This document shows positions 2,992-16,071 of a stretch of DNA of 62,525 nucleotides, in pieces. The notes under the pieces are model-generated. The model was not told where the DNA came from. It made no database searches and saw only the letters and a list, made by a program, of their open reading frames with translations. Source of the DNA: a virus; IMG/VR virus record IMGVR_UViG_3300020172_002336, positions 1 through 62,525 of that record. One strand, 5' to 3'. How positions within the stretch are numbered: position 1 is the first letter of the stretch; each line of letters starts with the position of its first letter. The position numbers were made by a program, and so were the translations under genes.

Positions 2992-3039
2992 TGGCAGTAA
3001 CCTACACCACACCAAAACATCAAGCTGTGAGAGGCGAAA

Positions 3040-4167
3040 ATGTACCTTAGTCAACTGCGCAAAGAGATCGAGACCTACTTCGACATCGGCCTGACGGTGG
3101 AACTCCAGAGTCCTCCGGGCGTTGGCAAGTCGGATTGGGTCGAGAACCTCGCTGCCGAACTGTCCGAACGTGACGGCTTCGAGTGGGGCTACGGCCGGGC
3201 GTTCCTCGGCACCTACACCCCGATCGACCTGATGGGCTACATGATCCCCGTCAAGCGAAAGGTCGTGGTCGACGGCGTCGAGACCGAGACCATGGTGTCG
3301 GAGTACACGCTCCCGCCGTGGTACTTCTCCGTCGACGGTCGCCCCCTGAACTCCTTCAAGAAGGCGATACTCCTGATGGACGAGTACGGTCAGGGCGAGC
3401 CGGACGTCAAGAAGACCGCTGCTGACCTGCGCCTGCACAAGCGCATCGGGCCGCACCAGTTGGCCGACAGCGTGAACATCATTTGCGCGTCCAACCGCGC
3501 CAAGGATCGCTCGGGCGTCACGAAGTCGTTCGACTTCGAGATCAACCGTGTCGCCTACCTGAACGTCGAGCCGGACTTCGGGTCGTGGGAAGCGTGGGCA
3601 TCGAAGCAGCGCATCGAGCCGATCTTCATTCTGTTCGCGCGCAAGTACCCTAACCTGATCTTCAACGGCGATGTGCCCAAGGATCAGGGACCGTTCTGCA
3701 CGCCGCGCTCGTACGTCGCCGCCATCAAGATGATCCGTGGCCGCGCCGAGATGATGAAGCGGCTCGGCATCACCTCTGCGGGTAACTACGGCTTCGCCGA
3801 CCAGAACGAGGGCGCCATCGTGCAGGAGCAACTCAACGGCATCATCGGTGAGGCTGCCAGCGTGCAGATGGCCGGGTGGATGCGCATGCGGCTGGAGACG
3901 CCCGACTACGCCGACATCGTCCTCAACCCCAAGACGGTCGACATGCCGTCGAAGCCCGACGCCAAGATGCTGGTCTGCTACGAGTGCGCCTACCACGTCA
4001 CGGCGGCTCAGATGGCCCCGGTCATCGAGTTCATCAAGCGCATGCCCCCGGAGTTCCACGTGACGTTCGCCAAGACGGCGGTCAAGCGTGACCACCGGCT
4101 GCTGATCCAGCAGGACATGCACGCTTTTATCAAGAACAATACCGCCTTGCTCAACGCCATCGGATAA
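3040..4167 (+). CDS. MoxR-like AAA+ ATPase (375 aa)
   Basis: Walker A is PPGVGKSD at residues 25-32 and Walker B is ILLMDEYGQG at about 110-119; IICASNRAKD near 150 fits sensor 1. The size and the long insert between Walker A and B fit the MoxR/RavA branch of AAA+ ATPases, which act as chaperone-like remodelling enzymes with a partner carrying a von Willebrand A domain. Such a partner is encoded at 5796. The start follows GAGAGG. Its phage role is unknown; virion maturation or host takeover are guesses. The two homing-type nuclease genes between ATPase and VWA gene look like later insertions into a two-gene unit. Confidence 0.85.
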   Translation: MYLSQLRKEIETYFDIGLTVELQSPPGVGKSDWVENLAAELSERDGFEWGYGRAFLGTYTPIDLMGYMIPVKRKVVVDGVETETMVSEYTLPPWYFSVDGRPLNSFKKAILLMDEYGQGEPDVKKTAADLRLHKRIGPHQLADSVNIICASNRAKDRSGVTKSFDFEINRVAYLNVEPDFGSWEAWASKQRIEPIFILFARKYPNLIFNGDVPKDQGPFCTPRSYVAAIKMIRGRAEMMKRLGITSAGNYGFADQNEGAIVQEQLNGIIGEAASVQMAGWMRMRLETPDYADIVLNPKTVDMPSKPDAKMLVCYECAYHVTAAQMAPVIEFIKRMPPEFHVTFAKTAVKRDHRLLIQQDMHAFIKNNTALLNAIG

Positions 4168-4212: not shown

Positions 4213-4722
4213 ATGCCCCACATATCCCCTCTTAAACTAGACCTGCACGGGCGCATCGCCTTCATGACTGGAGAACGGTACGGCCCGCTGCAGTGTCTAT
4301 CGTGGCGGGGTGGAACCAAGGGTGACGCGCGGATCAACAACGCGTACCCCACTATCATGTTCAAAGGGCAATCCTACCGCGTTAGTCGAGTGGTGCTGGA
4401 ACGCAAGCTAGGCCGTCCAATGAGACCCGGGACGTTCGCCTGCCATACCTGCGATGACAGCATGTGTATCGCAATGGAGCACCTATACGAGGGCACGCCC
4501 CAACAAAACACCGCCGACATGCGGTCGCGCGGTCGGCACTTCGACAATCGTGGCGAGAAGCACCCTAACGCGAAACTGACTGCTGAGACCGCCGCAGAAA
4601 TTCGACGGTTGCGGGGCGTGGTATCGCATCGAAAACTAGCCGCCCAATTCGGGGTGTCTCCCGGCGCGGTAGCGAGTGTTCTTTACGGCAAAACGTGGCG
4701 AGTAACTAACCCTCAAAGGTAA
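4213..4722 (+). CDS. HNH homing endonuclease with C-terminal helix-turn-helix (169 aa)
   Basis: The central part has the HNH layout of free-standing phage homing enzymes: CHTCDDSMCIAMEHLYEGT followed by QQNTADM and RGR. The tail, GEKHPNAKLTAETAAEIR then SHRKLAAQFGVSPGAVASVL and GKTW, is the helix-turn-helix commonly fused to such HNH domains for target recognition. It would cleave phage DNA lacking the gene and spread by repair. It separates the ATPase from a small gene; its stop lies in a palindrome copy. Confidence 0.85.
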   Translation: MPHISPLKLDLHGRIAFMTGERYGPLQCLSWRGGTKGDARINNAYPTIMFKGQSYRVSRVVLERKLGRPMRPGTFACHTCDDSMCIAMEHLYEGTPQQNTADMRSRGRHFDNRGEKHPNAKLTAETAAEIRRLRGVVSHRKLAAQFGVSPGAVASVLYGKTWRVTNPQR

Positions 4723-9292: not shown

Positions 9293-9535
9293 ATGTCCGG
9301 ACCCGGGCCAGATAAGCGACCCTTCAACTTCTACATCAGCCGTCAGCATCTGGCGATCGTCATCGCCGAGGCGAAGAAACAGAAGACCACGAAGACGGCG
9401 ATCCTCACCGAGCTTCTGGAGGTGCTTAAGGCGCGTCGTGAGCGGCGAGGCGACCCGATCCCGCGACCGGCCCCAAAATACAACGCGCCGTGGTTCGCTG
9501 AGAAGAAGGTCAAGCAGCCGAAGGCTAAGAGCTAG
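9293..9535 (+). CDS. Putative ribbon-helix-helix-type small protein (80 aa)
   Basis: Preceded by CGGAGCGAGT. Residues 11-45 (FNFYISRQHLAIVIAEAKKQ then TTKTAILTELLEVL) fit a short beta strand followed by two helices, the layout of ribbon-helix-helix DNA-binding proteins. The tail is very basic (about 12 Lys/Arg in the last 30). A regulator of the polymerase operon is possible; no conserved motif proves it. Confidence 0.55.
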   Translation: MSGPGPDKRPFNFYISRQHLAIVIAEAKKQKTTKTAILTELLEVLKARRERRGDPIPRPAPKYNAPWFAEKKVKQPKAKS

Positions 9536-9570
9536 CTCAAGCAGGGGTCACCCTGTCGGGAAGGTACGCT

Positions 9571-12500
9571 ATGGCGAGACGATTGATTGGACTCGACTTC
9601 GAGACCCACTACGACAGCAAGTTCTACACGCTGCGCAAGATGGACATTCCGTCATACATCTGCGACCCGCGTTTCGAAGCTACGCTCGTTGCCGTCAAGG
9701 AGGGCCACAATCCGGCGTTCATTGTCGACGGACCGGACATCCCCCGTTACCTGCAGGGGTTAGGCGATCCGAAGGACATTACCCTCTACGGGCACAATCT
9801 GATGTTCGACGCTTGCATCGCGTCGTGGATCTACGGCTGGCGTGCTGGGCTTAACATCTGCACGCTGGCGCTGGCCCGCCAAACGATCCAAGCCTACTGC
9901 AGGTCGTTGTCGTTGAAGTCCGTACTTGAGTATCTTCGCCTGCCAGCCAAGGGCGGGTTCCTGTCCATGGTGGATGGGATGCGCCGCGACGACATCATCG
10001 CTGCCGGGTTCTGGCAACAGTACTGTGAGTACGCGGTGGGCGACATCGACGGCGCGTACGGCATCTACCAGCAGCTAGCACCTCTGGTGCCGCCCGAGGA
10101 GCACGTCATCGCTGACATGGTGCTGCGCATGGCGACCGAACCGTCGTTCGATCTGGACCAGCCTCTGCTGCAGGCACATCTGGACGACGTCATCGAGAAG
10201 AAAGAGGAGATGCTGGCGTTCGCCATGATCGGCGGCTCGCTCCGCGGCAAGGAAGACCTCATGTCGAACGACAAGTTCGCTTTGGTCCTCCAGTCGCTGG
10301 GTGTCGACCCTCCCACCAAGATGTCGCCTGTCACCGGCAGGCAGGCGTGGGCGTTCGCCAAGTCCGACGAGGGTATGAAGGAGCTACAGGAGCATCCGGA
10401 CCCCGTTGTGCAGGCAGTTGTCGCGGCTCGGCTGGGGCACAAGACCACGCTGGAAGAAACCCGCACGGCTCGGTTTCTGAATTGCAGTACCCTAACGTTC
10501 CCGGCCTATGGCGTGGGTAAGTTCCCCGTACCCTTGAAGGTAAGCGGGGCGCATACTCATCGGTTGTGTCTGGTGGGTGAAACAATTATTTGCACTTTGC
10601 GGGATAACCGTGTAGTGTACGATCGTCTTGACTGCCTACGCGCTACTGATCTGGTGTGGGATGGCGAGGCGTTCGTGGCCCACGGGGGACTAGCCTATGC
10701 CGGACGAAAGCGAGTTATCACTCACGACGGTGTCACAGGGACGCCCGACCACCGGGTCTTTACCGGGAAAGGGCAACTCGCGCTGGCACTTGCAAAGGCG
10801 CAAGGCGAGGACATTACTCGTGGAGGAGTTCCTGATCCGGCACGGGTCGAAACGACTGTGCACAGGGGAGATCACGTATCATTCCAGAGTGGAATTCCAC
10901 TGCAGCAAGTGCGGGGCCGTTTGTCGGGCCATGTGGAAGGATCTAACGAACCGAGACCGGGTGTTGTGCAAGTCGTGCGCGATTACCGCGCGCATGGCGG
11001 GCGTGAAGCCCTCCACCAAGATGTTAGCCGCTTCGGCCAGACAGAACGTAGACGAAGCTGCCAAGGCGAGAGCGCGGCGGGTAGTGTTACCCTTGCAGGC
11101 AAGCCAGCCGCTGACACGGGAAACGACACGTTCGCAGGCGCGTCGTTTGTCGGTGAGTTGGAGCCCTTCGGATTGGAAGACCGCCTTGACGACGGCTACT
11201 CGTGTGTTCCAGCGATGCACCAACCCCCGCATATCGAGCTACCCGTACTACGGCGGCAGGGGGATCGAAGTCTGGTTTGCCTCGCCAGCGTTGATGGCGG
11301 ACTGGTTGCTGAAAAACTTAGGACCACGACCGCTGGGCCAGTCGCTCGATCGGATCATGTCCAACGGACATTACGAGCCGGGGAACTTACGTTGGGCGAC
11401 GAAGGAAGTGCAGATGAAAAACCGCAATTCATGGAAACATGGGACATAATCGACTGCGGACCTCGCAACCGCTTCATGGCTAATGGCCGCCTTGTTCATA
11501 ATAGCGGTGACTGGAAATATAACGCGCAGAACATGCGCCGCGGCGGCAAACTTCGTAAGTCTCTCAAGGCACCACCCGGCCACACGGTCGTGGTCGGCGA
11601 CGAAAAACAAATCGAAGCGCGCATGGCCGCCGAGTTCAGCGGGCAGGCCGACCTCGTCGAGCAGTTCCGACTGGGCGTGGACACCTACGCCGCGATGGCG
11701 ACCAAGATCTTCGGGTTCGTTGTCGATCGTAAGGTTCACGTGCCGCAGGGGTTCGTCGGTAAGACATGTCTCGGCGCTGACACTCTGGTGTTGACAGATA
11801 GTGGATGGAAGCCTATCCCATACATCTTGGCTTCCGACAAAGTATGGGACGGTATGGCGTGGGTGACGCATCAGGGATTGATCTACCAAGGGGTGAAGCC
11901 GGTACTGACGAAGTACGGCGTGACGGCAACTTCGGACCACGAGATCAGTTTGGGAAGTTCGTGGCTGGAGTGGAGCGCGGTATGCGCGGACCGCCGCCTT
12001 TTCCAGTCGGCAGTCGCGTCGGTTCGTTTACCGTGCTCGGCTACGTCAACCACAAACAAGGCTGGCACCCAATCTGCCAATGCGAGTGTGGGCGAGCGGG
12101 CCGCGTCGACCGGCACAACCTCAAAAGCGGCAAGTCAACTCGGTGCCGTAAATGTTTGGGCGCGAGGCACTCTAAGAACTTTGCACTGTACCGCGACATC
12201 CTGCCTGACGATGCTCACAGACGCCGTCTCGCCAACCGCATCAGGGCCTGCATTGACAGGTGCCACAACCCAAAGAACCGGGTTTACCGCGGCTACGGCG
12301 GGCGAGGCATACACGTCCACGAAGCATGGCGTACTAACATCGGCACGTTCTTGGCCTACGTGCAGTCGTGCGCGGGCTGGGATGACCCGGCTCTCCACAT
12401 GGATCGAACAGATAACGAGAAAGGTTACGAACCGGGCAACATTAGGTTCGTTACCATCACAGGAAACAACCAAAACCGAAGGGAGGTTTGGAAGCTGCAG

Positions 12501-13242
12501 CTTCGCATCGACGAACTTGAAGCCCGTCTACGACATTGCAAATGCGGGGCCGAGACATCGGTTCACGATCCTGACTGATGAAGGGCCGCTGGTTGTCAGC
12601 AACTGCGTGCTCTCGGGCATGTACGGTGTTGGGCCGCCGAAGTTTCGTAGCTCGGTTATTCATCTGTCCAAAGAACAGACCGGCACGAGGATCGACGTCG
12701 ACGTTGATCTGGGGCCGACCGTTACCTCGGAGACCATCATTGAAGCCTACCGTCGTGAGACGTGGGCGATCACTGAGATGCGGAAGCGGCTGAACAACTG
12801 CATCCCGCTGATGGCCCAGCCCGATTGTAACTTCTTCGTCGGGGCAGTGCAGTTCCTCTACCAGAAGATCAAGCTACCAAACGGCCATTACCTCTACTAC
12901 AATAAGCTACGTTTCGACGACACGTCAGGCAGTTGGATCTACGAGTACGCCGGACGCTGGAAACGCATCTACGGCGGTGCTCTTTTGGAGAACATCATTC
13001 AGGCGCTCGCGCGTATCGTGACCATGCACGCGGCGCTGCGCCTGCGCCCCGATCTGAGTAAGTACAACTGGAAGCTGGCACTGCAGGCGCACGATGAACT
13101 CGTCTTGATAGTTCCGAACGACCACGTGGACTGCGCCAAACAACGCCTCAAGGAAGAACTTACCCGGCAGGTAACATGGATGCCCAACCTGCCGGTCGAT
13201 GCTGATATTGGATCAGGCCCCACATACGGAGATGCGAAATGA
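9571..13242 (+). CDS. Family A DNA polymerase with 3'-5' exonuclease, interrupted by two inteins (1223 aa precursor)
   Basis: The precursor contains a DnaQ-type exonuclease domain (DFETH at residues 9-13, GHNLMFDACI near 77, YAVGDIDGAY near 155) and a polymerase domain: SGAHTHRL/SGDWK region, motif A VVVGDEKQIEAR at about 673-684, motif B in the GKT/CVLSGMYGVG region, and motif C AHDELV at 1173-1178. Intein 1 is residues 333-644 and intein 2 residues 733-1011; removal leaves 632 aa, a usual length for phage Pol A with exonuclease. The second intein splits the O-helix (motif B), so activity should require splicing. Start follows GGAAGG. The stop overlaps the next ATG. Confidence 0.92.
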   Translation: MARRLIGLDFETHYDSKFYTLRKMDIPSYICDPRFEATLVAVKEGHNPAFIVDGPDIPRYLQGLGDPKDITLYGHNLMFDACIASWIYGWRAGLNICTLALARQTIQAYCRSLSLKSVLEYLRLPAKGGFLSMVDGMRRDDIIAAGFWQQYCEYAVGDIDGAYGIYQQLAPLVPPEEHVIADMVLRMATEPSFDLDQPLLQAHLDDVIEKKEEMLAFAMIGGSLRGKEDLMSNDKFALVLQSLGVDPPTKMSPVTGRQAWAFAKSDEGMKELQEHPDPVVQAVVAARLGHKTTLEETRTARFLNCSTLTFPAYGVGKFPVPLKVSGAHTHRLCLVGETIICTLRDNRVVYDRLDCLRATDLVWDGEAFVAHGGLAYAGRKRVITHDGVTGTPDHRVFTGKGQLALALAKAQGEDITRGGVPDPARVETTVHRGDHVSFQSGIPLQQVRGRLSGHVEGSNEPRPGVVQVVRDYRAHGGREALHQDVSRFGQTERRRSCQGESAAGSVTLAGKPAADTGNDTFAGASFVGELEPFGLEDRLDDGYSCVPAMHQPPHIELPVLRRQGDRSLVCLASVDGGLVAEKLRTTTAGPVARSDHVQRTLRAGELTLGDEGSADEKPQFMETWDIIDCGPRNRFMANGRLVHNSGDWKYNAQNMRRGGKLRKSLKAPPGHTVVVGDEKQIEARMAAEFSGQADLVEQFRLGVDTYAAMATKIFGFVVDRKVHVPQGFVGKTCLGADTLVLTDSGWKPIPYILASDKVWDGMAWVTHQGLIYQGVKPVLTKYGVTATSDHEISLGSSWLEWSAVCADRRLFQSAVASVRLPCSATSTTNKAGTQSANASVGERAASTGTTSKAASQLGAVNVWARGTLRTLHCTATSCLTMLTDAVSPTASGPALTGATTQRTGFTAATAGEAYTSTKHGVLTSARSWPTCSRARAGMTRLSTWIEQITRKVTNRATLGSLPSQETTKTEGRFGSCSFASTNLKPVYDIANAGPRHRFTILTDEGPLVVSNCVLSGMYGVGPPKFRSSVIHLSKEQTGTRIDVDVDLGPTVTSETIIEAYRRETWAITEMRKRLNNCIPLMAQPDCNFFVGAVQFLYQKIKLPNGHYLYYNKLRFDDTSGSWIYEYAGRWKRIYGGALLENIIQALARIVTMHAALRLRPDLSKYNWKLALQAHDELVLIVPNDHVDCAKQRLKEELTRQVTWMPNLPVDADIGSGPTYGDAK
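10567..11502 (+). mobile_element. Intein 1 of the DNA polymerase (312 aa)
   Basis: It starts at Cys333 (CLVGETIICTLRD, block A), has block B as GVTGTPDHRVFT, and ends with block F WDIIDCGPRNRFMANG and block G RLVHN, followed by Ser as the first C-extein residue. The nucleophiles Cys1, His-Asn at the C-end and Ser+1 are all present, so splicing looks competent. Between blocks B and F about 665 nt remain open in the intein frame but give a featureless sequence without any in-frame endonuclease motif; an HNH endonuclease is encoded there in another frame. Confidence 0.88.
10697..11449 (+). CDS. HNH homing endonuclease nested out of frame inside intein 1 (up to 250 aa)
   Basis: This frame is +1 relative to the polymerase. 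It encodes a zinc ribbon (HCSKCG and LCKSC) and the HNH homing core of the type RCTNP, YYGGRGIEV, LDRIMSNGHYEPGNLRWATK, ending KNRN. The ATG at 10697 has GGGGGA eight bases upstream but would overlap block B; a GTG at 10820 after GCGAGG gives a shorter protein that starts beyond block B. It ends 53 nt before the intein end, inside block F. The likely role is cutting intein-less polymerase genes, doing in trans-frame what an in-frame intein endonuclease does. Confidence 0.85.
   Translation: MPDESELSLTTVSQGRPTTGSLPGKGNSRWHLQRRKARTLLVEEFLIRHGSKRLCTGEITYHSRVEFHCSKCGAVCRAMWKDLTNRDRVLCKSCAITARMAGVKPSTKMLAASARQNVDEAAKARARRVVLPLQASQPLTRETTRSQARRLSVSWSPSDWKTALTTATRVFQRCTNPRISSYPYYGGRGIEVWFASPALMADWLLKNLGPRPLGQSLDRIMSNGHYEPGNLRWATKEVQMKNRNSWKHGT
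11767..12603 (+). mobile_element. Intein 2 of the DNA polymerase (279 aa)
   Basis: It starts at Cys733 (CLGADTLVLTDSGWKPI, block A), has block B as GVTATSDHEIS, block F as VYDIANAGPRHRFTI and ends PLVVSN with Cys as +1 residue. The residue before the terminal Asn is Ser, not the usual His, so splicing may rely on other residues. The insertion point is within motif B of the polymerase. About 550 nt between blocks B and F are open in the intein frame but carry no endonuclease motif (Thr/Ala/Ser-rich); an HNH gene is read there in a different frame. Confidence 0.87.
11982..12578 (+). CDS. HNH homing endonuclease nested out of frame inside intein 2 (198 aa)
   Basis: This frame is +2 relative to the polymerase. 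The ATG at 11982 has GGAG six bases upstream and yields the typical N-terminus of phage HNH enzymes (PVGSRVGSFTVLGYV), followed by CQCECG and CRKC, then RCHNP, YGGRGIHV, LHMDRTDNEKGYEPGNIRFV and NQNRR. The open frame extends back to 11805 but without a good site. It starts just after block B and its last 20 or so codons are also read as intein block F, so that stretch is truly dual-coding. It ends 25 nt before the intein end. Confidence 0.88.
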   Translation: MRGPPPFPVGSRVGSFTVLGYVNHKQGWHPICQCECGRAGRVDRHNLKSGKSTRCRKCLGARHSKNFALYRDILPDDAHRRRLANRIRACIDRCHNPKNRVYRGYGGRGIHVHEAWRTNIGTFLAYVQSCAGWDDPALHMDRTDNEKGYEPGNIRFVTITGNNQNRREVWKLQLRIDELEARLRHCKCGAETSVHDPD

Positions 13243-13520
13243 CGAGCCAATCCGACACGACCGCGACGCCGAGCACTCTCAAGGTCCGCACGAAAGTGTC
13301 CGCCGCTGAGAAGCAAGCCAACTACGACCGCGCCTACGAGACGCAGGTCAAGCAGTTCTGCTTCCAGCAGGCAGCGGAGCACAGCCTGACAGACGGTGCG
13401 GCCAATCCGAAGGCCCCTCCGATGGAGGCGATCCTCCAGAACGCCGACCTCATGTTCAAGTGGTTCAAGAACGGCACCGTGCCCGCGGCCAGAGCCGCCA
13501 GCATCCACGCGCTCAACTAA
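13239..13520 (+). CDS. Hypothetical protein (93 aa)
   Basis: The ATG overlaps the polymerase stop as ATGA, so expression is coupled to the polymerase. Charged, helical, Ala-rich (NYDRAYETQVKQFCFQQAAE). Possibly a small accessory of replication; no known motif. Confidence 0.65.
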   Translation: MTSQSDTTATPSTLKVRTKVSAAEKQANYDRAYETQVKQFCFQQAAEHSLTDGAANPKAPPMEAILQNADLMFKWFKNGTVPAARAASIHALN

Positions 13521-14557: not shown

Positions 14558-16071
14558 TGACTGCACAACTGCACGTGCCGTGGCAACAAGCAGTCGCGAA
14601 CCTGTTCCCGGGCGCACCCGTACAGGACGGCAAGATCATCCTGCCGTACGGGGTAGCCGAGACGACGATCCTCAGGCGTCTTGGTATGCAGGTCGAAGCG
14701 CCTGTGTTGTCGCAATACAAGTTCACCGGCACGCGGCCGCCGTTCGGCGTGCAGCGCACCACCGTCGAAATGCTAACGATGAACACGCACTGCTACGTGT
14801 TGTCAGGCATGGGTGTCGGCAAGACGGCGTGCCCGCTGTGGGCGTTCGATTACCTGCGAGGGCAACAGATCGCCCGCAAGATGCTGGTGGTTGCCCCGCT
14901 GTCGACGCTCAGCTTCACATGGATGGCTGAGATCTTTCAGATCCAACTCGGGCGCACAGCGGTCGTGTTGCACGGCAGCCGTGCCAAACGTCTCAAGCTG
15001 TTGGCCGAGGACCACGACATCTACATCATTAACCACGACGGCATCGGCACGATCTATCCGGAGCTATGCGCGAAGTTTGGCAAGAAAGACATCCTCACCA
15101 TCGACGAGCTTGCGACCTACCGCAACCCCGGCCCGCGCACGAAGATGATGAAGAAATTCGCCGAGCATTTTGGTTGGGTATGGGGGATGACGGGTGCCCC
15201 TACTCCCAAGGAGCCTACCGACGTCTGGAACCAAGCGAACATCGTTACCCCGGCGCGCGTACCCAAATACTTTGGGCGCTTCCGTGAGGAACTGATGTAT
15301 AAGATCACCAACTTCAAGTGGCTTCCAAAGGAAGGCGCGGCGCAGAAGGCGTACGAGGCGATGCAGCCGAGCGTGAGGTTCACGCTGGAAGACGTGGGTG
15401 AGCTACCGCCGTACATATCTCGCCGCATCGACGTGGACCTTGGGGCCAAGCAGCGACACATCTACGAGGAGATCCGCAAGTCGTGCATGGCTATTGTCGG
15501 TGCCGACACGGTGACAGCAGCCAACGCTGGAGTGCTCTTGAGTAAGCTCCTCCAGATCAGTTTGGGTTACGTCTACTCCGAGAAGAAGGGCATCATCACC
15601 CTCGACAACCAGAACCGGCTTAACACGGTGGTCGACTTGCTCGGGTCCGGCTGCGGTAAGGCGTTGATCTTCACTTCGTTCAAGCACTCCCTGCAAGGCG
15701 TCGCCGACGCAGTTACCTCCGCGGGTTACCGCACGGCGATCGTCTCGGGAGATACACCAGCGGCAGAACGCAATCGTATCTTCGACGCGTTCCAAAATCG
15801 TGACGAACTCGACAACATCGTGGCGCATCCGCAGTGCATGGCGCACGGCATCACGATGACGGCAGCGGACACTGTGCTGTGGTTCGGCCCGCACACGTCG
15901 TTGGAGATTTACGATCAGGCCAACGCACGTATCCGCCGCACCGGCCAAAAGAAGAAGCAGCAGTTCCTCCATCTGCAGGCGACCCCCGCGGAGAAGAAGA
16001 TCTGGTCCATGCTCATCGCTCGTCAGGACGTGCAGAGCCAGTTGCTCAAGCTGTTCGAAGACGAAATGTAG
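14557..16071 (+). CDS. SNF2-family helicase (504 aa)
   Basis: The N-terminal RecA domain has the Walker A GMGVGKT at about 84-90 and Walker B ILTIDELATYRNP near 180, followed by WGMTGAPTP (motif III). The C-terminal RecA domain has KALIFTSFKHSL, IVSGDTPAAERNRIFDAFQ and the motif VI QANARIRRTGQ. This is the layout of phage SNF2/DEAD helicases that usually accompany VRR-NUC nucleases. It would act in DNA replication, repair or branch processing. Start chosen at the ATG overlapping the nuclease stop. Confidence 0.9.
   Translation: MTAQLHVPWQQAVANLFPGAPVQDGKIILPYGVAETTILRRLGMQVEAPVLSQYKFTGTRPPFGVQRTTVEMLTMNTHCYVLSGMGVGKTACPLWAFDYLRGQQIARKMLVVAPLSTLSFTWMAEIFQIQLGRTAVVLHGSRAKRLKLLAEDHDIYIINHDGIGTIYPELCAKFGKKDILTIDELATYRNPGPRTKMMKKFAEHFGWVWGMTGAPTPKEPTDVWNQANIVTPARVPKYFGRFREELMYKITNFKWLPKEGAAQKAYEAMQPSVRFTLEDVGELPPYISRRIDVDLGAKQRHIYEEIRKSCMAIVGADTVTAANAGVLLSKLLQISLGYVYSEKKGIITLDNQNRLNTVVDLLGSGCGKALIFTSFKHSLQGVADAVTSAGYRTAIVSGDTPAAERNRIFDAFQNRDELDNIVAHPQCMAHGITMTAADTVLWFGPHTSLEIYDQANARIRRTGQKKKQQFLHLQATPAEKKIWSMLIARQDVQSQLLKLFEDEM

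Follow-up and report, generated by a model that had tools for sequence, protein, structure and literature searches.

Out-of-frame HNH endonuclease genes overprinted on phage DNA polymerase inteins, and their possible link to split inteins

Introduction

Record IMGVR_UViG_3300020172_002336 of IMG/VR is a stretch of viral DNA of 62,525 nucleotides, the whole of which we call the window. It carries a gene for a family A DNA polymerase (polA) with two inteins in frame, and within each intein lies a gene for an HNH endonuclease that is read in a different frame from the intein itself. The locus raises the question of how the same nucleotides came to serve two genes, and of what keeps both frames open. 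A preliminary description had noted that the two HNH genes lie at different offsets (+1 for HNH1, in intein 1, and +2 for HNH2, in intein 2), and it argued from this, and from the divergence of the two proteins, for two separate insertions and for selection on a stop-free intein frame. We suggest that the homing endonuclease of each intein is encoded by an HNH gene of its own, overprinted on the intein in a different frame, within a scheme of dual coding, splicing and homing, and we assign this interpretation a probability of roughly 0.8.

Results

Two inteins and two overprinted genes in one polymerase gene

The polA frame runs through both inteins with zero internal stops (Table 1). With the intein-free polA homolog of Rhizobium phage RHph_TM3_14A (L005; such numbers are our handles for loci) as reference, the junctions, marked here by a slash, read HRL/C...VHN/SGDW for intein 1 and GKT/C...VSN/CVL for intein 2, the latter in the segment (GKx/C) that we take to be motif B of the polymerase. 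Both inteins have an N-terminal Cys, a block-B TxxH and a C-terminal Asn followed by Cys, Ser or Thr, with the signatures C...GTPDH...HN/S and C...ATSDH...SN/C, respectively, and they are homologous to each other (41% identity over 71 amino acids). The AlphaFold2 model of intein 2 has a mean predicted local distance difference test score (pLDDT) of 91–97 over residues 1–90 and of 96–97 from about residue 251 (the last ~29 residues), with 32–51 in the ~150 residues between. Its folded ends match the Mtu RecA intein and have the HINT fold (VIA-align Z 14.7, root-mean-square deviation 2.3, 112 residues), and the closest Foldseek match is gp41-1; a PDB sequence search with the profile of the intein N block matched solved inteins at E 0.002–0.02. 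The sequence signatures, together with the fold of intein 2, point to HINT protein-splicing elements, for which splicing is predicted. A group I or group II intron at polA was rejected, positions 9500–13500 having matched no Rfam family at E up to 1.

Neither endonuclease stands in the frame of its intein, as it would in a conventional bifunctional intein: HNH1 is at +1 and HNH2 at +2. The frames and coordinates of the preliminary description proved right, as did its view that the two proteins differ much, their likeness being distant (33% identity over 81 amino acids). The two genes were recognized through PHROG 374 only, with no HNH match in Pfam or NCBIfam. HNH2 shares 46.6% identity with the out-of-frame HNH of Vibrio phage 97.13, and a search with HNH1 of the window alone returned no relatives among viral_contigs. 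Against PDB sequences the HNH2 profile yielded chance-looking matches only, and the Foldseek search with HNH2 returned mainly unrelated small folds.

Table 1. Features of the polA locus and of a helicase-like gene in the window. IntN and IntC are the N- and C-terminal splicing blocks; ORF, open reading frame.
Feature	Position	Strand	Basis
polA (family A DNA polymerase) precursor ORF, 1223 amino acids, both inteins in frame	9571..13242	+	ORF list; Pfam DNA_pol_A E 2e-15
Intein 1, contiguous, 936 nucleotides/312 amino acids, polA site a (AHTHRL/SGDW)	10567..11502	+	Junctions versus intein-free L005; IntN and IntC profile matches
Intein 1, IntN	10567..10794	+	
Intein 1, filler	10795..11433	+	
Intein 1, IntC	11434..11502	+	
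HNH1, +1 frame versus intein 1; likely gene from GTG 10820 (longest ORF 10697-11449, ATG 10697)	10820..11449	+	PHROG 374 HNH endonuclease E 1e-19
Intein 2, contiguous, 837 nucleotides/279 amino acids, polA motif B site (GKT/C)	11767..12603	+	Alignment; AlphaFold2; VIA-align
Intein 2, IntN	11767..11982	+	
Intein 2, filler	11983..12525	+	
Intein 2, IntC	12526..12603	+	
HNH2, +2 frame versus intein 2	11805..12578	+	PHROG 374 HNH endonuclease E 4.7e-33
Unoccupied third polA site, YGGALLEN	12970..12993	+	Most of 77 intein-bearing relatives of the third set hold a +1 overprinted intein around the YGGALLEN motif
Unoccupied helicase site, LLSKLLQIS, in the window's helicase-like ORF	15535..15561	+	L162/L164 and L263-L266: +1 overprinted intein at LLQIS/C or LLQIC/C

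A widespread class of phage inteins

Relatives were gathered in three sets. The first comprised 84 loci, i.e., the best 80 of 296 relatives of HNH2 found by a profile search of IMG/VR, plus four named phages. IntN and IntC share one frame with no stop between them, and the HNH lies at +2, in 83 of these 84; in the exception, L073, the end of the contig cuts the locus and the sequence begins inside the HNH. The +2 layout occurs inside polA of Vibrio phage 97.13, EBPR siphovirus 2, Pseudomonas phage MR14 and Salmonella phage FSL SP-101, and the loci of the HNH2 family range in GC content from 0.43 to 0.66. The second set, the best 80 of 386 relatives in a search with the intein N block, yielded further kinds: contiguous inteins with a +1 HNH, inteins with no HNH (L116 and L131), and split inteins. 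Across the intein rows tabulated, 171 of 182 carry an HNH, which is in frame with its own intein in 0 of 171. The third set held the best 80 of 115 relatives of a third HNH group, of which 77 with an IntN were classified and the 3 of 80 lacking one were left unclassified. All 77 have the HNH at +1 and none in frame, and the intein frame is open in 76; these inteins lie mainly in polA near YGG..EN, and a few in an SNF2-type helicase. Contigs of bacterial genomes added eight +2 and three +1 inteins, 11 of 11 open and none with an in-frame HNH. Five loci (L100, L108, L109, L135 and L160) have two inteins in one polA, a split +1 intein at site a and, at motif B, a contiguous +2 intein, which is the two-site pattern of the window. 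The HNH overprinted on an intein is a large and widespread class among phages and no local oddity. An assembly or sequencing error is rejected, since identical frames recur across many independent records.

One might suppose that the intein formerly contained the HNH as an in-frame domain, that insertions and deletions later shifted it to another frame, and that the present layout is one of decay. Conventional inteins with an in-frame HNH do exist in phages, such as the bifunctional intein with HNH_3 in the dCTP deaminase of cyanophage CL131 (PMC6293099), and HNH1 of the window carries signs of decay, to which we return. We consider this very improbable: in-frame cases number 0 among the 171, 77 and 11 HNH-bearing rows, the HNH frames are intact and conserved at most loci, and each clade has a uniform offset.

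Several loci depart from the common layout. L072 and L079 each have an intein of 1092 nucleotides with extra sequence between IntN and the HNH. L150 holds two inteins in one polA, of which the first (3001-4059) has a +1 HNH and follows DSSQIE, while the second (4252-4695) is short, lies at motif B and has no HNH that we could detect. Residues 330-378 of the helicase ORF L162:883-4407, which precede its overprinted intein, weakly match LAGLIDADG_3 (E 0.0016), and this is possibly a second insertion.

The intein frame is kept free of stops

We estimated how many stops the intein frame should hold by recoding each HNH gene with synonymous codons at the codon usage of its polA (500 runs for the window). 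HNH1 is expected to impose 5.3 stops on the intein frame and HNH2 2.9; both have 0, which occurred in 0.2% and 2.2% of the runs, respectively. The evidence for stop avoidance is modest for intein 2 of the window alone, and overwhelming together with the relatives. Among these (L042 and L160, with a stop in the HNH frame, and the short L090 and L159 were omitted), contiguous +1 rows (n = 19) have 9.0 stops per locus expected and 0 observed, with 9.7 in the third frame, and contiguous +2 rows (n = 88) have 5.5 expected and 0 observed, with 11.9 in the third frame, which is never free of stops in either class; "contiguous" was defined by the intein frame having no early stop, so that these zeros arise partly by construction. 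The 60 split rows hold 934 stops in that same frame. A less biased count, of rows with both HNH and an IntC in the frame of IntN, gives 100 of 101 stop-free, the exception being L137. Homologous HNH genes outside detectable inteins have an open alternative frame in 1 of 69 cases.

Could the open frames be a by-product of high GC content and codon bias, with HNH genes leaving the intein frame open by chance? The single non-intein gene of the 69 with an open second frame (L227) has a GC content of 0.66, and for intein 2 taken alone the chance is 2.2%. Zero stops are found even at GC 0.39 (L190) and 0.42, and stops abound in the third frame and in the split relatives. Three controls, i.e., synonymous recoding, the third frame, and the HNH genes not in detectable inteins, lead us to reject chance, for which we see practically no room. 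Our results support selection on the stop-freedom of the intein frame, as the preliminary description had proposed.

The two frames are conserved to different degrees. For pairs of the +2 class at 75–85% nucleotide identity, identity is 85% in the HNH, 56% in the filler and 55% in the third frame, with other identity bins alike, and substitutions in the HNH frame gather at codon position 3. Since the filler is no more similar than the unused third frame, it is kept stop-free and yet is not conserved as a protein; it is otherwise unconstrained, and predicted to be disordered. The preliminary description had called both fillers rich in Thr, Ala and Gly. This holds for filler 2, where these residues make up 41%, and not for filler 1, where they make up 27% and the composition is led by Gly, Arg and Val.

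Offsets mark lineages older than this genome

We built a tree of 112 HNH rows (62 of 174 had been dropped as near copies) and one of the intein splicing blocks (88 of 177 rows dropped likewise). In the HNH tree all 57 contiguous +2 rows, HNH2 among them, fall on one side of a branch with a support of 100 in the Shimodaira-Hasegawa-like approximate likelihood ratio test (SH-aLRT). HNH1 lies within a separate +1 clade at polA site a, and the +1 rows form at least two groups, one of them amid free-standing phage HNH genes. The intein-block tree concurs: its 53 +2 rows all lie to one side of a branch with a support of 90. The +1 offset is common to at least two unrelated HNH lineages, the site-a clade and the YGGKL/helicase clade. 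It follows from the single +2 clade and the separate +1 groups that different offsets mark different lineages, and that an equal offset is no proof of common origin.

These trees bear directly on the proposal of two separate insertions. HNH1 and HNH2 are not sister genes, a placement that would have spoken against the proposal, and both trees put them in distinct lineages; the insertions were not made in this genome, since each intein and its out-of-frame HNH form a unit of long standing that has many relatives. The offset as a marker of origin, on which the proposal relied, is sound to the extent that the +2 rows are one lineage, and weak when taken alone, as +1 is common to unrelated ones.

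Presence, absence and decay of the element

Relatives of intein 2 show exact empty sites. The polA of Escherichia phage vB_Eco_Hrm2 and of Salmonella phage Shelanagig (L179 and L180) aligns on both sides of the insertion, and exactly the 897-nucleotide element of FSL SP-101 is absent; the presence and absence expected of a homing element is therefore observed for the intein 2 family, in close relatives rather than in the window phage itself. In L042/L160, L284 and L331 the HNH frame is stopped and the intein frame open, as would follow if the nuclease is the first to decay and splicing is required. In L159 only a remnant of the HNH is left, in an intein of 606 nucleotides.

Expression of the overprinted gene

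The likely GTG start of HNH1 is preceded by a Shine-Dalgarno-like GAGGA at 10807-10811. Candidate starts of HNH2 are ATG 11844, GTG 11859, GTG 11961 and ATG 11982; of these, ATG 11982 is preceded by GGAG. At the EWV motif of the +2 class, an A closes the codon ahead of Trp, which creates an ATG in the HNH frame, in 46 of 71 rows against 26.8 expected, and the corresponding position in the +1 class has no ATG bias (4 of 9 against 4.0 expected); both statistics are nominal, the rows being related by descent. C is depleted ahead of the Trp in the SWK motif; this was considered a trace of start-codon selection and then dropped, as other Trp codons show equal depletion.

Alternatively, the HNH might be produced by programmed ribosomal frameshifting from the intein frame, by -1 in the +2 class and by +1 in the +1 class, giving a fusion of the N-terminal part of PolA, IntN and HNH. 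The likely start codons of the +2 class often lack a good Shine-Dalgarno sequence, and at several loci the HNH frame opens within IntN, where a shift would be feasible. We noticed no common slippery motif in the start regions that we looked at, a systematic search not having been made. Two offsets would moreover demand two types of shift, only the +2 class favors ATG in its +2 frame, and HNH1 of the window has its GAGGA-GTG start. We regard frameshifting as unlikely, and translation from an internal start as the probable route.

Split and contiguous forms of the same elements

In the split inteins, the polA-IntN frame stops ~300–380 nucleotides into the intein, the HNH follows at +1, and IntC-polA is in the third frame. 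In L107 and L109, polA-IntN, the HNH gene and IntC-polA stand on separate frames; IntN and IntC lie on separate ORFs in these two loci and in L333, and on one in both window inteins. Two contiguous forms, intein 1 of the window and L087, are nested within split loci in the HNH tree, in the intein-block tree and in a tree of both combined, the last giving a set of seven rows a support of 100/97 (for the HNH-only tree of split and contiguous forms, the split rows were thinned further by hand). Monophyly of the split rows is rejected by the combined data (p-AU, approximately unbiased test, 0.028) and not by the single parts (0.17 for the HNH, 0.09 for the intein blocks). Among split rows that have an HNH and in which IntC was located, IntC is at +2 in 43 of 44. 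The split intein L333:2251-3195, at the YGG..EN site of polA and with an HNH between its halves, is a split form among 76 contiguous relatives; its IntC has its own ATG and is still in the old frame, and in L137 IntC is in frame 0 as well. A further split polA intein, L124:3001-3407, has its halves close together and no HNH between them.

Judging from these sequence patterns, overprinted and split inteins appear to interconvert, and the simplest reading may be one kind of element that moves between split and contiguous states, intein 1 of the window having perhaps been re-fused. We give even odds to the broader idea that in overprinted inteins we have the missing link to natural split inteins: after out-of-frame capture of an HNH, continuity would be set only by the absence of stops, and the element could slide between cis- and trans-splicing, with intein 1 and L333 as the two directions. 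A little short of even odds goes to the alternative that intein 1 has always been contiguous and that its split relatives arose several times from contiguous ancestors, with no re-fusion. Splitting is mechanistically easy, as L333 with its IntC in the old frame illustrates, and L137 fits as well. The nesting of the window and L087 in split loci argues against it, as does the monophyly rejected by the combined data, though by neither part alone; so does the near-constant +2 position of IntC, which suggests one shared split.

Discussion

We propose the following scheme. The ribosome would read the whole polA ORF, and both ends of each intein would fold as a HINT splicing domain that cuts itself out together with the disordered filler linking them, leaving an intact polymerase. 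Translation of the same mRNA in the HNH frame, most likely initiated at an internal codon of the intein, would also give a free HNH nuclease that may recognize intein-less polA alleles and so bring about homing of the whole unit. The intein frame would be kept stop-free in order to reach IntC, and the HNH frame kept functional for mobility. The offset, +2 in the motif-B lineage and +1 in the others, would have been fixed when the HNH was captured and inherited thereafter. Where stops gather in the intein frame and IntC gains a start of its own, the result could be a split intein whose halves flank an HNH gene.

Several observations weigh against this scheme, in addition to the definition of contiguous rows discussed above. 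The penultimate residue of intein 2 in the window is Ser (Ser-Asn), so that the usual His-Asn is absent. The fold comparison of HNH2 is weak, the best VIA-align match being PacI (Z 5.2, root-mean-square deviation 4.0, 87 residues), and the Shine-Dalgarno evidence in the +2 class is ambiguous. The locus sets include near-identical contigs. HNH1 of the window has Met where Asp stands in 42 of 43 distinct split relatives, and it lacks ~45 C-terminal residues that most split relatives have, as the shortened HNH of L087 also does; from both features, HNH1 may be inactive or decaying.

Dassa et al. (2009, NAR) reportedly described fractured genes with split inteins and a free-standing endonuclease. 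L107 and L109, in which polA-IntN, the HNH gene and IntC-polA are apart, resemble that arrangement; the inteins of the window differ in being contiguous and in having the HNH overlap the intein rather than sit between two genes. With conventional bifunctional inteins they share the HINT splicing domain and the placing of endonuclease sequence between the two splicing blocks, but their endonuclease is read in a different frame and would be made as a protein of its own. The closest parallel in layout is the ShiLan-type insert in a mycobacteriophage methylase, an out-of-frame HNH in a stop-free host frame for which the authors found no splicing domain (PMC11855218). The alternative-frame HNH, the stop-free host frame, the patchy distribution and the puzzle of how the HNH is translated are common to both. 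The filler there stays in the methylase, whereas the host frame in the window does have a splicing domain, with IntN and IntC, the HINT fold and exact junctions. A Jerseyvirus, Salmonella phage vB_SenS-Ent1 (HE775250, L178), has a polA intein of 897 nucleotides of the same family and at the same insertion site as intein 2 of the window; it is annotated as 'intein, encoding splicing domains', and the out-of-frame HNH is present and unannotated. In the open-licence literature we found no account of an HNH overprinted on a working-looking intein across phages or of its link to split inteins; a preprint on actinobacteriophage inteins with 'non-canonical architecture' (10.1101/2025.01.02.630785) may already describe part of it.

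These elements form a large set of phage inteins that has been overlooked, in which annotation misses the mobility gene because the intein occupies the same DNA in another frame. They provide a natural dual-coding system with a clean readout, in stops and in identity by frame. Finally, they offer a testable and concrete origin for split inteins, which serve widely as tools of protein engineering.
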